Below are positions 806 through 5,053 of a stretch of DNA of 6,269 nucleotides, piece by piece (position 1 is the first letter of the stretch; each line of letters opens with the position of its first letter). The notes below the pieces were generated by a model. The model was given only the letters and a program-made list of their open reading frames with translations. It ran no database searches and was not told where the DNA came from. Made by a program: the position numbers and the translations under genes. Origin of the DNA: Candidatus Atribacteria bacterium (GTDB lineage Bacteria; Atribacterota; JALVIU01); the NCBI GenBank assembly GCA_027028665.1, contig JALVIU010000030.1:1-6269 (forward strand). Reading direction: 5' to 3'.

Positions 806-1618
806 CTATTCCTTTATAACAAACACCTCTTCAAGGTGCATAAAATCCACTCGAGGGACAATATAAATCTTTTGGTACAATTTGTCAAGTTCTTTATCTA
901 TTTTAAATACTTCTCCTACAACTATACCTTTAGGATATATGCCACCCAAACCTGATGTTATAACTACATCTCCTCTTTTTATATTCGCCTGATTATTTAT
1001 ATAAATCATCTTCAAATAGTTCTTCCCCAAACCCTCTATAACTCCTATATCTCGTGTTCTCTGGATCATTCCACCTAAAGAACTCTTTACATCCAGAATA
1101 AGCATTACCTTTGCAGTTTTAGGAGTTGTAGCCTTCACCTTTCCTACAAGGCCAAGATATGTAATAACAGGCATATCCTTTCTTATACCATCATCACTTC
1201 CTTTATCTATAAATATATATTTAAACCAGTTGGAAGGCTCTCTTCCAATTACATTTGCAGGCAGAAGATTAAAGGAAGAGGTATCCTTATATCTAAGCAT
1301 CTTATTCCATCTTTTGTAATAGGAAAGTTTCTCTTTTAAGGTATTATTTTCGTTTAACAATAGAGAAATGGCCCTTTTCAGCTCTTGATTTTCAATTTTT
1401 ATTCGCCTATATTCTGTAAATATAGAAAGATAACTTGCTATATTTTCATAAAGTGATTGAAGGAATTGGGACAACTCGGAAAAGACCTGAGATATAGGAT
1501 AGGTGAACCTATATTGATCAAGAGAAAATTTATAACTTAATGTAATAAGTAATAAAGAGATAAAAACAATAAAAAGTAGAAGGTATATATGCCTACTTTT
1601 CTTCGTCTTGTAAAACAT
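806..1618 (-). CDS. mreC: Rod shape-determining protein MreC
   Basis: MreC is a bitopic membrane protein that links the MreB cytoskeleton to the cell-wall elongation machinery (PBP2/RodA) on the outer face of the membrane. The 270-aa product has the family's full layout: a short basic N-terminus, one membrane helix at about residues 11-29, a probable coiled coil at about 58-105 (E/K/L-rich, containing IENQELKRAISLLLNENN), then the beta-domain from about 118. Family signatures include NVIGREPSNWFKYIFIDKG (122-140), TSGLGGIYPKGIVVGEV (221-237) and the closing DFMHLEEVFVI (258-268), which matches the common DFSRLEEVxVI ending. The ATG start lies only 2 bp after the mreB TAG, with just a weak GATGGA upstream, so translation is probably coupled to mreB. 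It is followed not by mreD but by an M16 peptidase gene. Length is normal for the family. Confidence 0.95.
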   Translation of the reverse strand: MFYKTKKSRHIYLLLFIVFISLLLITLSYKFSLDQYRFTYPISQVFSELSQFLQSLYENIASYLSIFTEYRRIKIENQELKRAISLLLNENNTLKEKLSYYKRWNKMLRYKDTSSFNLLPANVIGREPSNWFKYIFIDKGSDDGIRKDMPVITYLGLVGKVKATTPKTAKVMLILDVKSSLGGMIQRTRDIGVIEGLGKNYLKMIYINNQANIKRGDVVITSGLGGIYPKGIVVGEVFKIDKELDKLYQKIYIVPRVDFMHLEEVFVIKE

Positions 1619-1620
1619 AT

Positions 1621-2637
1621 CTATTCCATCTGGATTAAGACACTAAAATATTTACTCGGATTATTAAATACCTTTGCTATACCATCTATCACGGAGAATA
1701 AAGGGTTTGGAGCAAAGATAACAGGTAGACCTAACTTCTCCCTTATATAGAGATCTAGGCCTTTTATAAGGGAGCCGCCTCCTGATAATACCAGACCCCT
1801 TTCCATTATATCTGCATGTATCTCGGGATCGGCTTTTGCAAGAGTTTCCCTCAATACCCTTACAATCTCATCTACAAGGGGTAGGAGTGCATGTCTTAAT
1901 TCTTCTGCACTTATCTCTTTGGCCTTTGGAAGACCTGTTACCAGATCTCTCCCCTTTGCAAAGTATTTCTCATTCGGGTTATTCACTATCCCAAGATTCA
2001 CCTTTATCGACTCTGCCATTTGTTCTCCTATCAGGATCTTATATTCTGATTTGAAAAATCTTATTATCTCCTCATTCATTCTATCTCCTGCTACACCTGT
2101 TATCTCATTTTGCACAAGGCCTCCTAAGGAGATAATGGCAGACTCGCTTGTACCTCCACCTATATCTATAATAAAACTACCCATGGCTTCAAATATATCC
2201 ATCCCTGCACCAATGGCTGCAGCTATTGGCTCTGATACAAGATATGCCTTTTTTGCACCCAACCTATAGGAGAGCTCAAGAACCGCCCTTTTATCCACTG
2301 AACTTACAGCAGAAGGGACACATACTATAGTTTCCATGGTAGAGAAAAAACCTGATCTTACATCTGTTAATTCAAAAAACTTTTTAAGCATAAGTATAGT
2401 GTATTCAAGCTCTGATATTACCCCATATCTTAATGGTCTTACCACATCAATATAATATGGTGCACGTCCAAGCATCTTTTTTGCCTTTCGACCTACATCT
2501 ACTACCTGTTTGGAATCTTTATATACACTTATTACACTGGGTTCATTAAGCACTATCCCCCTCCCCTTTACATATACAAGAGTATATGCAGTACCAAGGT
2601 CAACACCTATCTTTTTCTTAAAAATCGGTATACCCAT
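1621..2637 (-). CDS. mreB: MreB/Mbl-type bacterial actin, divergent
   Basis: The 338-aa product has the usual MreB length and actin-fold landmarks: phosphate-1 loop DLGTAYT (13-19), NEPSVISV (31-38), the catalytic glutamate in SEPIAAAIGAG (E136), phosphate-2 loop IDIGGGT (157-163), AGD (183-185) and the adenosine-motif SGGGSLIKGL (285-294). MreB forms membrane-bound, nucleotide-dependent filaments that direct lateral wall synthesis; the adjacent mreC supports that role. It is divergent: DLGTANT is DLGTAYT, RPxKDGVI is RPLRYGVI (Y71), and the usual ALGTGKAL near the end is VIDGIAKVF (316-324). It could be an MreB paralogue (Mbl/MreBH-like) rather than the only MreB of the cell. The ATG is preceded by a strong GAGGAGAG site in the 17-bp gap after the radical SAM gene. 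Confidence 0.93.
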   Translation of the reverse strand: MGIPIFKKKIGVDLGTAYTLVYVKGRGIVLNEPSVISVYKDSKQVVDVGRKAKKMLGRAPYYIDVVRPLRYGVISELEYTILMLKKFFELTDVRSGFFSTMETIVCVPSAVSSVDKRAVLELSYRLGAKKAYLVSEPIAAAIGAGMDIFEAMGSFIIDIGGGTSESAIISLGGLVQNEITGVAGDRMNEEIIRFFKSEYKILIGEQMAESIKVNLGIVNNPNEKYFAKGRDLVTGLPKAKEISAEELRHALLPLVDEIVRVLRETLAKADPEIHADIMERGLVLSGGGSLIKGLDLYIREKLGLPVIFAPNPLFSVIDGIAKVFNNPSKYFSVLIQME

Positions 2638-2654
2638 ATATAACTCTCCTCAAC

Positions 2655-3656
2655 TCATTCAAATACACCATCTACCTCTTCCCCACAGAATTTACATTTA
2701 CCGCTTTCTATGTTATACGAAATGATCTCATATCCCCTTCTTACAATTAAAGGTCTTCCACAATGCTTACAATAAGTTGTATTAGCATCTATATTCCAGA
2801 CATTGCCCATATAGACATAATGGAGTTTTTCTTGTGCCATATTATAGGCCATCTTTACATGCTCAACAGGGGTTTCAGGTATCGTCATCTTATATGCAGG
2901 AAAATAACGAGAAAAATGTAGGGGAATAGCAGGATCCAGGTGGTGTACCCAATCAATGAGCTTTTTTATCATCTCTGGGCTATCATTTAGCCCTGTTATC
3001 AAAAGATTGGTAATCTCTATATGAACACCTGCATTATAAGCAGCCTCTATGCTCCTAAGCACTGGTAAAAGATGTCCACCTGTATATTTTACATAGAAAT
3101 CATCACTAAATGCTTTAAGGTCTATATTCATTGCATCTATATATGGTAAGAGTTCCTTTTGAGGAATGGGATTTATATATCCATTTGTCACAAGTACCAC
3201 TTTTAAACTTCTCTCTTTTACCAAAGGTGCAGAATCTTTTATAAATTCATACCAGATGGATGGTTCATTATAGGTATACGCTACCCCACATGAACCATAT
3301 TCACCAGCATAAATAGCCAGATCCTCGATAGAAAGGGTCTTTGTGGGAACATCACTCTCTAAGGCTTGAGAAATCTCCCAATTTTGACAGAATGGACAGA
3401 AAAAATTACATCCAAATGTACCAATGGATAGAATCTTAGAGCCAGGTAAAAAATGATAAAGGGGTTTCTTTTCTATGGGATCTAATGCCAAAGATGTAAT
3501 CTTTTTATAATTTAACGTATAAAGTATCCCATTTCTATTTAGTCTTACTCTACAATCGCCCCTTTGCCCATTTTCTATAATACACCCTTTAGGACATAGA
3601 AGGCATCTTATCCTCTTATCTTCTAATGTTTTATAGAAAAGGGCTTCCTTCAGCAT
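2655..3656 (-). CDS. amrS: AmmeMemoRadiSam system radical SAM enzyme (AmrS-like)
   Basis: This 333-aa protein is a radical SAM enzyme of the type encoded beside AMMECR1 proteins. An N-terminal cysteine cluster (C18, C21, C25, C35; CLLCPKGC and GDC) comes first. The canonical CxxxCxxC cluster site follows at C83, C87 and C90 (GCNFFCPFCQNWEIS), binding the [4Fe-4S] that cleaves S-adenosylmethionine. Further signatures are YTYNEPSIWYEF (127-138), VTNGYINP (156-163), MNIDLKAF (176-183) and HFSRYFPAYKM (247-257). The end is a rubredoxin-like zinc ribbon with CKHCG (C296, C299) and CKFCG (C321, C324), typical of this family rather than of pyruvate formate-lyase activases, which are its nearest relatives. 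The reaction is not established to my knowledge. Its ATG lies 2 bp after the stop of the AMMECR1 gene, so the two are probably translationally coupled. The enzyme should be oxygen-sensitive and cytoplasmic. Confidence 0.94.
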   Translation of the reverse strand: MLKEALFYKTLEDKRIRCLLCPKGCIIENGQRGDCRVRLNRNGILYTLNYKKITSLALDPIEKKPLYHFLPGSKILSIGTFGCNFFCPFCQNWEISQALESDVPTKTLSIEDLAIYAGEYGSCGVAYTYNEPSIWYEFIKDSAPLVKERSLKVVLVTNGYINPIPQKELLPYIDAMNIDLKAFSDDFYVKYTGGHLLPVLRSIEAAYNAGVHIEITNLLITGLNDSPEMIKKLIDWVHHLDPAIPLHFSRYFPAYKMTIPETPVEHVKMAYNMAQEKLHYVYMGNVWNIDANTTYCKHCGRPLIVRRGYEIISYNIESGKCKFCGEEVDGVFE

Positions 3657-3658
3657 GT

Positions 3659-4174
3659 CTAATAATGCCTCGTAACGGTAAATTTATATATTTTGATAGG
3701 TTCACCAGGGTAAATGCCTGCCTTTCTCTTTGCAATCTCTATCTGATCATCTACTGTATCCACTCCTTCAATATCAGGTAGCAGAAGACCCCTCTTAAAA
3801 CCACTCTCTACTATAATTCCATACTTTTTAGGGTCAAGTTCTTCTATATCCTCTACCTCTTCTGGTTCAGATAGCACATCCACAGAGATCTCAAGTTCTG
3901 GAAGTTCACTCTCCCTCACAGGGGGAAAACGCGGGTCTTCTGTAGCGGCTGCTATTGCATTTCTTATGATTTCTTCTGCAATATTTCTCTGAGTTGGTAT
4001 AAAGGTGCCTATACATCCCCTGAGGTTTCCATATTTATGCAGAGTAACAAATACACCTGCTCTATTTTCTGTAAGTTCAGATGGTGTATCATCTGGTACA
4101 TCTATTATACGTCCATTCCTAATATATTCTTCTATAGCCAATCTTGCAAGTTTTGCATGGGGACTTTTCTCCAT
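3659..4174 (-). CDS. amrA: AmmeMemoRadiSam system protein A (AMMECR1 domain)
   Basis: This is a whole-length AMMECR1-domain protein, about 171 aa from the chosen start. The diagnostic LRGCIGT is present (residues 54-60 counted from the upstream GTG; subtract 3 for the ATG), with [12 protein letters not shown] (78-89), [12 protein letters not shown] (97-108), and [20 protein letters not shown] (132-151) leading to AKRKAGI. These are the conserved blocks of bacterial, archaeal and human AMMECR1. Its biochemical role is unknown; in bacteria and archaea it travels with the radical SAM enzyme encoded 2 bp downstream, and often with a Memo-family protein, which is absent here. I prefer ATG 4174-4172 because AGGGGTGATC sits at proper spacing before it. 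The alternative is GTG 4183, which overlaps the preceding stop as GTGA but has almost no spacing to the same purine run. Confidence 0.94.
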
Positions 4175-4177
4175 AAC

Positions 4178-4187
4178 GATCACCCCT
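4178..4187 (-). promoter_or_regulatory. Ribosome binding site deciding the AMMECR1 gene start
   Basis: The minus strand reads AGGGGTGATC followed by GTT and ATG. This is a close match to the 16S anti-Shine-Dalgarno complement (AGGAGGTGATC), with 8 nt between GGGG and the ATG at 4174. The alternative GTG start at 4183 lies inside this same element, so it would lack a properly spaced site. The element also contains the TGA stop of the 60-aa gene, so ribosomes ending there are placed at the next start. Confidence 0.65.
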
Positions 4188-4362
4188 CTTTTTTCTCATC
4201 TATTATAATCTCGATCTTTTCAAGATTTTGGGGCATACCCTTTAGACTCTTGAGGATACCCCTTATAGCACCTTTTAAAAATTCTCCTACAAACCTATTT
4301 ATCTCTATATGCTGACCATTTACCCTAAGATATACATCTTCAGAGACTTTATGCTTTCCCAT
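4180..4362 (-). CDS. Small protein of unknown function (60 aa)
   Basis: I do not recognise this gene. The 60-aa product has no membrane segment and no cysteine. It looks like a small folded domain: a strand-turn-strand at about residues 9-21 ([12 protein letters not shown]), an amphipathic helix at about 22-42 ([19 protein letters not shown]), and a final strand at about 48-54 (EKIEIII), ending in a charged DEKKEG tail. Evidence that it is real: an ATG with GGGG 9 nt upstream, a length that fills the gap between two genes exactly, and a stop placed within the ribosome site of the AMMECR1 gene. The position suggests co-production with the AMMECR1/radical SAM pair, perhaps as a small partner or binding protein, but nothing in the sequence gives a function. 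Confidence 0.72.
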
Positions 4363-4376
4363 AATAAATTACCCCA

Positions 4377-4946
4377 TTATATAAACTTCCAGAGGTCTAC
4401 AAATTTCTCAAAATCCTTATATTGATCATCATATTCATCAAAATTCGCAGCAAAACTTATTATATAATATATATCATCCCTTTTCACAAGAATAAGTTTT
4501 AATCTAAAGTGTTTATCCCCCTTCTTTAGAGTAAGGTCATACTCTGCTTCTCTTGCAGGAACATCTTTAAATGTAGTCTCCTCTATCCCCTTTATCATCT
4601 TTCCACCCTCTTTATAGGTCTTCTGCTTGGGAACACTTACAAAAAACTTCTGTATCTCTTCTTCAGAAAGAGGCTTCTTGGGTTTTACCACACCAACTAC
4701 TATTACAGGAAAATCTTTTTTTCTGTCTTTTAAGGTCATTTCTATCTGTACGCCATCTTTTGCCTTTCGATAGTTAGAAAATTCCCAATTATCTCCTGGT
4801 AAAGAAATAGAAAAATGTAGTTTTTCATCACTTATCGTACTACCCTCTACCTTATGCGGGCGATTCATAAAAGTAAATATAATCTGGGGTAGAAAGATAA
4901 GGATAATCGCAATATAGATAAAAACTAACCACTTATTTTTAAACAT
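4377..4946 (-). CDS. Membrane-anchored protein of unknown function, possible PsbP/Mog1-like domain
   Basis: This is the first gene of the cluster, 189 aa. It has a short basic N-terminus, one hydrophobic helix at about residues 6-26 (an uncleaved anchor or signal peptide), then a soluble domain that should face outside. There is no cysteine, so it is not a lipoprotein. The domain starts with LHFSISLPGDNWEFS (43-57), passes through alternating strands (IEMTL, PVIVVGVV, AEYDLTL, HFRLKLILVKRDDIYYIISFAAN), and closes with a helix (DEYDDQYKDFEKFVDLWKF). The pattern 'FSISLPxxW ... YxIxFAAxxxxFxxxxxxFxxxxxSF' recalls the PsbP/Mog1-like fold of many bacterial exported proteins; this is by eye and tentative. 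The ATG at 4946 has a good AAAGGAG site 7 to 8 nt upstream. The stop lies 14 bp before the 60-aa gene. Confidence 0.82.
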   Translation of the reverse strand: MFKNKWLVFIYIAIILIFLPQIIFTFMNRPHKVEGSTISDEKLHFSISLPGDNWEFSNYRKAKDGVQIEMTLKDRKKDFPVIVVGVVKPKKPLSEEEIQKFFVSVPKQKTYKEGGKMIKGIEETTFKDVPAREAEYDLTLKKGDKHFRLKLILVKRDDIYYIISFAANFDEYDDQYKDFEKFVDLWKFI

Positions 4947-4974
4947 AAATATTGCTCCTTTCGGTTTTTTATAT

Positions 4975-5002
4975 ATTATACATTATAATCTAAAATATGC
5001 AA
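4975..5002 (-). promoter_or_regulatory. Sigma-70-type promoter for the seven-gene cluster
   Basis: The minus strand carries TTGCAT (5002-4997), a 16-bp spacer, and a perfect TATAAT (4980-4975). The start of transcription would lie near 4968, giving a leader of about 20 nt that holds the AAAGGAG site of the 189-aa gene. A second TATAAT (4987-4982) lies in the spacer but has no plausible -35 partner. The region is very A+T-rich, so chance matches are easy, but the position between a terminator and the first gene of a packed cluster supports it. I see no operator palindrome or riboswitch in the leader. Confidence 0.65.
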
Positions 5003-5018
5003 GTAATTTTATAAGAAC

Positions 5019-5053
5019 AAAAAAGCCCTGACAGATAAAACTGTCAGGGCTTT
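5019..5053 (-). terminator. Intrinsic terminator of the pyruvate:ferredoxin oxidoreductase gene
   Basis: A perfect 13-bp inverted repeat (arms 5022-5034 and 5041-5053, core GCCCTGACAG/CTGTCAGGGC) encloses a 6-nt loop. On the minus strand the hairpin is followed by six T residues (5024-5019), the outer ones shared with the stem. It begins 14 bp after the stop codon at 5067. On the plus strand only three T follow, so it should work mainly in the minus direction, separating the oxidoreductase gene from the next cluster. Confidence 0.93.

Follow-up and report, generated by a model that had tools for sequence, protein, structure and literature searches.

The window analysed here, 6269 bp in length, is the whole of contig C30 of a 1.79-Mb draft genome (G000), and all eight main genes in it lie on the minus strand. 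In the order of transcription they begin with the C-terminal part of pyruvate:ferredoxin oxidoreductase (PFOR), which is closed by a strong terminator, and continue with genes for a PsbP_2-family protein, a 60-aa protein, AMMECR1, a radical SAM enzyme (rSAM), an MreB, MreC and an M16 peptidase (Table 1). The original prediction had placed AMMECR1, rSAM, mreB and mreC in a single operon with gaps of 2, 17 and 2 bp, and these gaps and the coordinates behind them were confirmed when we re-measured the gene ends. A further 14 bp separate mreC from the M16 gene. At the other end the 60-aa ORF lies 5 bp before the ATG of AMMECR1 (–4 bp if the possible alternative GTG at 4183 is taken as the start) and the PsbP_2 ORF 14 bp ahead of that, giving a run of seven genes. 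The 60-aa ORF overlaps the possible GTG start of AMMECR1, and the other Atribacterota loci that we compared lack it.

Table 1. Features of the AMMECR1–rSAM–mre unit in the window, listed in the direction of transcription
Feature	Position	Strand	Basis and remarks
Intrinsic terminator ending the PFOR gene upstream, start boundary of the unit	5022..5053	-	13-bp stem, 6-nt loop, T-run; -23.1 kcal/mol, z -7.40
Likely promoter region and Shine-Dalgarno of first gene	4947..5020	-	Putative TTGCAT-16-TATAAT, by eye; under scan threshold
PsbP_2-family protein (189 aa), probably the first gene in the unit	4377..4946	-	PF18933 32 bits, cut-off 27
60-aa protein, weak likeness to MobB/FeS C-terminal domain (PRK14494)	4180..4362	-	27 bits, far under full-length cut-off
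AMMECR1, AmmeMemoRadiSam protein A	3659..4174	-	PF01871 173.5 bits; TIGR04335 153.9 bits, cut-off 99; LRGCIGT invariant
AmmeMemoRadiSam radical SAM enzyme	2655..3656	-	TIGR04337 346.8 bits, cut-off 220; invariant Cys sets; PFL-activating-enzyme-like fold
MreB2, second divergent MreB paralog	1621..2637	-	PF06723 375.9 bits; f2/f5 MreB2 clade; ATPase motifs kept
MreC	806..1618	-	PF04085 171.8 bits; sole MreC found in genome
M16-family peptidase, C-terminus lost at contig end	3..791	-	PF00675 139 bits

Tight spacing was ruled out as evidence for an operon, as 43 of 60 same-strand neighbours (72%) in a 94-kb sample from other contigs of the genome are separated by 17 bp or less. Such gaps are the rule in this compact genome, so that packing alone says little, and the earlier caution that the adjacency might be due to chance was apt as far as spacing is concerned. 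Scanning the 17-bp gap between rSAM and mreB revealed neither a promoter-like nor a terminator-like site on the minus strand, in keeping with the claim that the genes leave no room for either, and no separate transcript start is visible immediately before mreB. The same gap holds a good Shine-Dalgarno sequence for mreB (GAGGAG). Across the window promoter-like sites are not enriched (19, versus 23.1 in shuffled sequences).

Identity of the AMMECR1, radical SAM and MreB proteins

Conservation of AMMECR1 extends from archaea to humans; we know of no settled function for its bacterial and archaeal rSAM partner or for the AmmeMemoRadiSam system. The window proteins belong to this system, as both of its dedicated members score above their curated cut-offs and are adjacent, as they are in the system as known. 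The window genome differs from it in the linkage to mre. A profile search for Memo (PF01875) gave no match in the assembly, but this is ∼90% complete and in 413 contigs. In most Bacillota loci AMMECR1 is part of a longer, apparently fused ORF beside rSAM, whereas the window AMMECR1 is a single domain. This is by sequence the same domain as in the solved structures of PH0010, MM0484 and ST0229 (1vaj, 1zq7 and 1wsc), all of which are labelled hypothetical proteins and carry no function.

The CxxxCxxC motif of the rSAM, its N-terminal Cys set and its C-terminal CxxC...CxxC set are all invariant. Its structure is predicted with confidence (pLDDT 88), and the best solved relative both by sequence (about 9e-13) and by fold (target TM 0.76–0.78) is pyruvate formate-lyase (PFL) activating enzyme. 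The likeness has its bounds, as the two share ∼17% identity, the score is far under the PFLA cut-off and the rSAM has the additional N- and C-terminal Cys sets. This fold and sequence suggest that the rSAM may abstract hydrogen by means of a 5′-deoxyadenosyl radical, possibly on a polypeptide.

The gene called mreB in the original prediction does encode a member of the MreB family, but not the ordinary MreB: it is a divergent paralog, and the normal mreB of the genome is found on contig C43. The window protein is an actin-type PF06723 member, retains the nucleotide motifs DLGT, EP, DIGGGT and GGG, and exceeds the NF010539 MreB cut-off (373.6 versus 293) while reaching about 353 bits (352.7–353.1) on TIGR00904, under the curated cut-off of 365.75. 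Together with copies from Atribacterota families f2 and f5 it forms a clade, here termed MreB2 (support 99/90), separate from the ordinary MreB that these genomes also carry. Its branch length of 1.65 is about 15 times the median, and it has diverged far beyond every other MreB2 and beyond the C43 MreB of its own genome. An alignment revealed no obvious new invariant site in MreB2. As in the mreBCD-PBP2-rodA operon, mreB directly precedes mreC in the window; unlike in that operon, this mreB is a paralog, AMMECR1 and rSAM stand ahead of it, and the M16 peptidase takes the place of mreD-PBP2-rodA after mreC. A profile search of the genome for MreD gave no match.

Gene order across Atribacterota

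We searched 50 Atribacterota genomes for AMMECR1 and MreC. Both are present in 40, on one contig in 36 of these and on different contigs of draft assemblies in the remaining four. In all 36, spanning seven families, mreC has AMMECR1 ahead of it on its own strand, 1.7–11.5 kb away. It is this order and not the spacing that takes the conservation beyond chance, and it shows that the adjacency is not a peculiarity of one species.

Three arrangements can be distinguished. In families f3, f4, f6 and f7 the order is yqgF-like, AMMECR1, rSAM, ApbE, mreC, a gene in the mreD position, PBP2 and rodA, with most junctions being small overlaps of a few bp. The window has AMMECR1, rSAM, MreB2, mreC and M16 with gaps of 2 to 17 bp. 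Families f5 and f2 have a looser version, in which hypE, AMMECR1, rSAM (in f5 only), MreB2 and mreC are followed by the M16 peptidase in those loci compared that extend so far. The f5 gaps are 100–400 bp, and several f5 genomes carry an opposite-strand CitMHS transporter gene between rSAM and mreB. In f2 AMMECR1 precedes MreB2 and MreC with no rSAM in the cluster; TIGR04337 copies found elsewhere in f2 genomes (G001, G003, G007, G015, G025 and G043) are of a distant subfamily. Neither the window genome nor any f5 genome has ApbE, which lies inside the cluster in f3, f4, f6 and f7, indicating that a single slot is filled by either ApbE or MreB2. The mreD and rodA genes of f2 and f5 are together, about 2 kb apart (leaving room for PBP2) and away from mreC, and in f3, f4, f6 and f7 it is mreB that is away from mreC. 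Across the phylum, mreC is thus linked more firmly with AMMECR1 than with the genes that usually accompany it.

By its normal MreB the window genome groups with f2 and f5. The phylum is divided into the classes JS1/Phoenicimicrobiia and Atribacteria (OP9) (PMC11227167), and f2 and f5 would fall on the former side and f3, f4, f6 and f7 on the latter. The rSAM trees leave many forks open, including whether all Atribacterota cluster rSAMs form one clade.

The flanks of the cluster vary as well. In f2 and f5 the genes for NiFe-hydrogenase maturation (hypF, hypC, hypD and hypE) often precede AMMECR1 (L066, L068, L070, L071, L076 and L079), and in f3, f4 and f6 there is a FeFe hydrogenase cluster upstream (L075, L199 and L200). 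A complete turnover of both flanks between the two deep lineages, against which the core would have been the more conspicuous, was considered and rejected in part, as YqgF-like and NuoF/HydB-like genes are also retained upstream in some f2 and f5 genomes. Passive descent of a block consequently explains part of the conservation. Taken to its end, this reading holds that hydrogenase genes, yqgF, AMMECR1, rSAM and mre are an ancestral block that was never broken up and that AMMECR1 and rSAM have, apart from a shared transcript, no functional connection with wall growth. Besides the retained flank, the compact genome with its short gaps everywhere, the tolerance of the cluster for gene insertion and for absence of the rSAM, and the near lack of linkage in other sampled phyla are all consistent with it. 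However, the link between mreC and AMMECR1 outlived those of mreC to mreB and to mreD-rodA, overlaps are tight in four families, and the linkage recurs elsewhere with a different rSAM subfamily (see below). We regard inheritance of the block as a serious contender, though as a full account a rather unlikely one.

Linkage outside the phylum and its interpretation

Outside Atribacterota we examined about 85 genomes in two samples (35 + 50). In the first, the rSAM was near MreC in only 1 of 35 genomes with a TIGR04337 relative, a Spirochaetes MAG in which it lies 3.7 kb past rodA, and in the second AMMECR1 was close to MreC (2.6 kb) in 1 of 50 genomes having both. The latter genome (G143, L222:5797-14897 on its contig C1), which is probably a Coprothermobacter (C. 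proteolyticus), has an mre operon led by genes for a LigB-domain protein, AMMECR1 and rSAM with 4-bp overlaps, followed by DUF4321, mreB, a gene whose product resembles MreC (27.1 bits, slightly short of the 28 set by Pfam), a gene for a small protein at the place of mreD, PBP2, minC-like, minD, minE and rodA; an M16 peptidase gene is convergent to the operon. Its rSAM is of another subfamily, grouping on a long branch with a Thermoplasmatota sequence and not with those of Atribacterota. Orthology of this operon to the Atribacterota cluster is unsupported, as neither its MreB nor its rSAM joins the Atribacterota groups, with the caveat that their branches are long. One direct case in about 85 genomes makes recurrence of the linkage suggestive. 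Together with the phylum-wide conservation, this recurrence in a second phylum means that co-transcription of AMMECR1, rSAM, mreB and mreC, probably as a single transcript, is well supported, and the shared operon of the original prediction stands on its conserved same-strand order.

Both in Atribacterota (L017, L018, L029-L031, L075 and L198-L200) and in Thermotogota, WOR-3 and Deferribacterota loci (L091, L105, L113 and L150) the gene for ApbE, an FMN transferase, lies immediately beside that for the rSAM, often with ∼40 bp of overlap. In other phyla, genes of envelope type close to the rSAM encode a CwlD-like amidase (L096, L103, L107 and L122), a UppP-like protein (L098 and L135) and a GlmM-type mutase (L084). 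As the rSAM was missed by ORF calling in 7 of the 80 named loci, neighbour counts outside the phylum are lower bounds.

It is conceivable that the product of the pair modifies a lipid carrier, for example an isoprenoid, or another wall or envelope component, and so belongs functionally with the elongasome. The two apparently separate linkages to mre are compatible with this, as are scattered rSAM neighbours named by inspection (the GlmM-type mutase, in Dictyoglomota, and UppP-like, CwlD-like amidase and KdtA-like genes), and a genome-context study of the Memo/PCAD superfamily reportedly proposed base or isoprenoid modification. These neighbours are raw counts, uncorrected for a background rate, and may be due to chance, however, and hydrogenase genes and ApbE neighbour the rSAM too, leading us to consider such an envelope substrate improbable. 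The broader statement that AMMECR1 and rSAM make or modify something that wall elongation uses, having been joined to mre at least twice (early in Atribacterota and in the G143 lineage), is a speculative one to which we give only limited credence.

The original prediction went further in proposing a functional link in which the product of the set is needed with wall growth or serves to modify a component of the machinery. The operon and the adjacency behind this link were upheld, but the control genomes speak against modification of MreB or MreC. Methanocaldococcus jannaschii and Methanosarcina acetivorans have matches to AMMECR1, Memo and the rSAM family and none to MreB or MreC, and Escherichia coli, Bacillus subtilis and Caulobacter have MreB and MreC matches and no AMMECR1. 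As these methanogens have the set and no MreB or MreC, its core reaction must be independent of the elongasome. Furthermore, f2 keeps MreB2 and MreC though its cluster lacks the rSAM, the clusters of f3, f4, f6 and f7 have no mreB, and MreB2 offers no evident new site. The adjacency itself, the likeness of the rSAM to PFL activase, whose group acts on the protein backbone, and the unusual divergence of the window MreB2 would fit post-translational modification of MreB, MreC or another elongasome protein, which we nonetheless judge very improbable.

These archaeal sets lead us to prefer growth-coupled co-transcription to a modification of MreB or MreC. In such a model a core of AMMECR1, rSAM, a slot gene (MreB2 in the window lineage, ApbE in f3, f4, f6 and f7) and mreC would have been passed down throughout the phylum Atribacterota, the rSAM with AMMECR1 as its partner would work on a substrate other than MreB or MreC, and the place of the pair in the mre operon would reflect a demand for its product in proportion to growth or envelope synthesis. 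We place the probability of this growth-coupled unit at roughly one half. The order kept in 36 of 36 genomes, the tight overlaps, the persistence of the mreC–AMMECR1 link beyond the other links of mreC, the second-phylum recurrence, the archaeal controls and the PFL-activase-like rSAM all argue for it; the loose f5 gaps with their CitMHS insertion, the rSAM missing from the f2 cluster, the retained yqgF/hydrogenase flank and the near absence of the linkage outside the phylum argue against it.

Among known arrangements, the AmmeMemoRadiSam set and the mre operon come closest. We found no paper in the open-access literature that joins AMMECR1 with MreB or ApbE, and a joined AMMECR1–rSAM–mre cluster that swaps the gene in its slot appears to be undescribed in the searchable literature. 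In Atribacterota, a little-studied phylum with the cultured members Atribacter laminatus and Thermatribacter velox (PMC7736352, PMC11227167), two functionally unsolved proteins thus stand ahead of genes for cell-wall elongation. Such a phylum-wide link, read from genomes, does not in itself show the role of the pair, but it makes the open functional question testable, as the mre operon would offer a specific place at which co-expression, cell shape and envelope chemistry could be measured.
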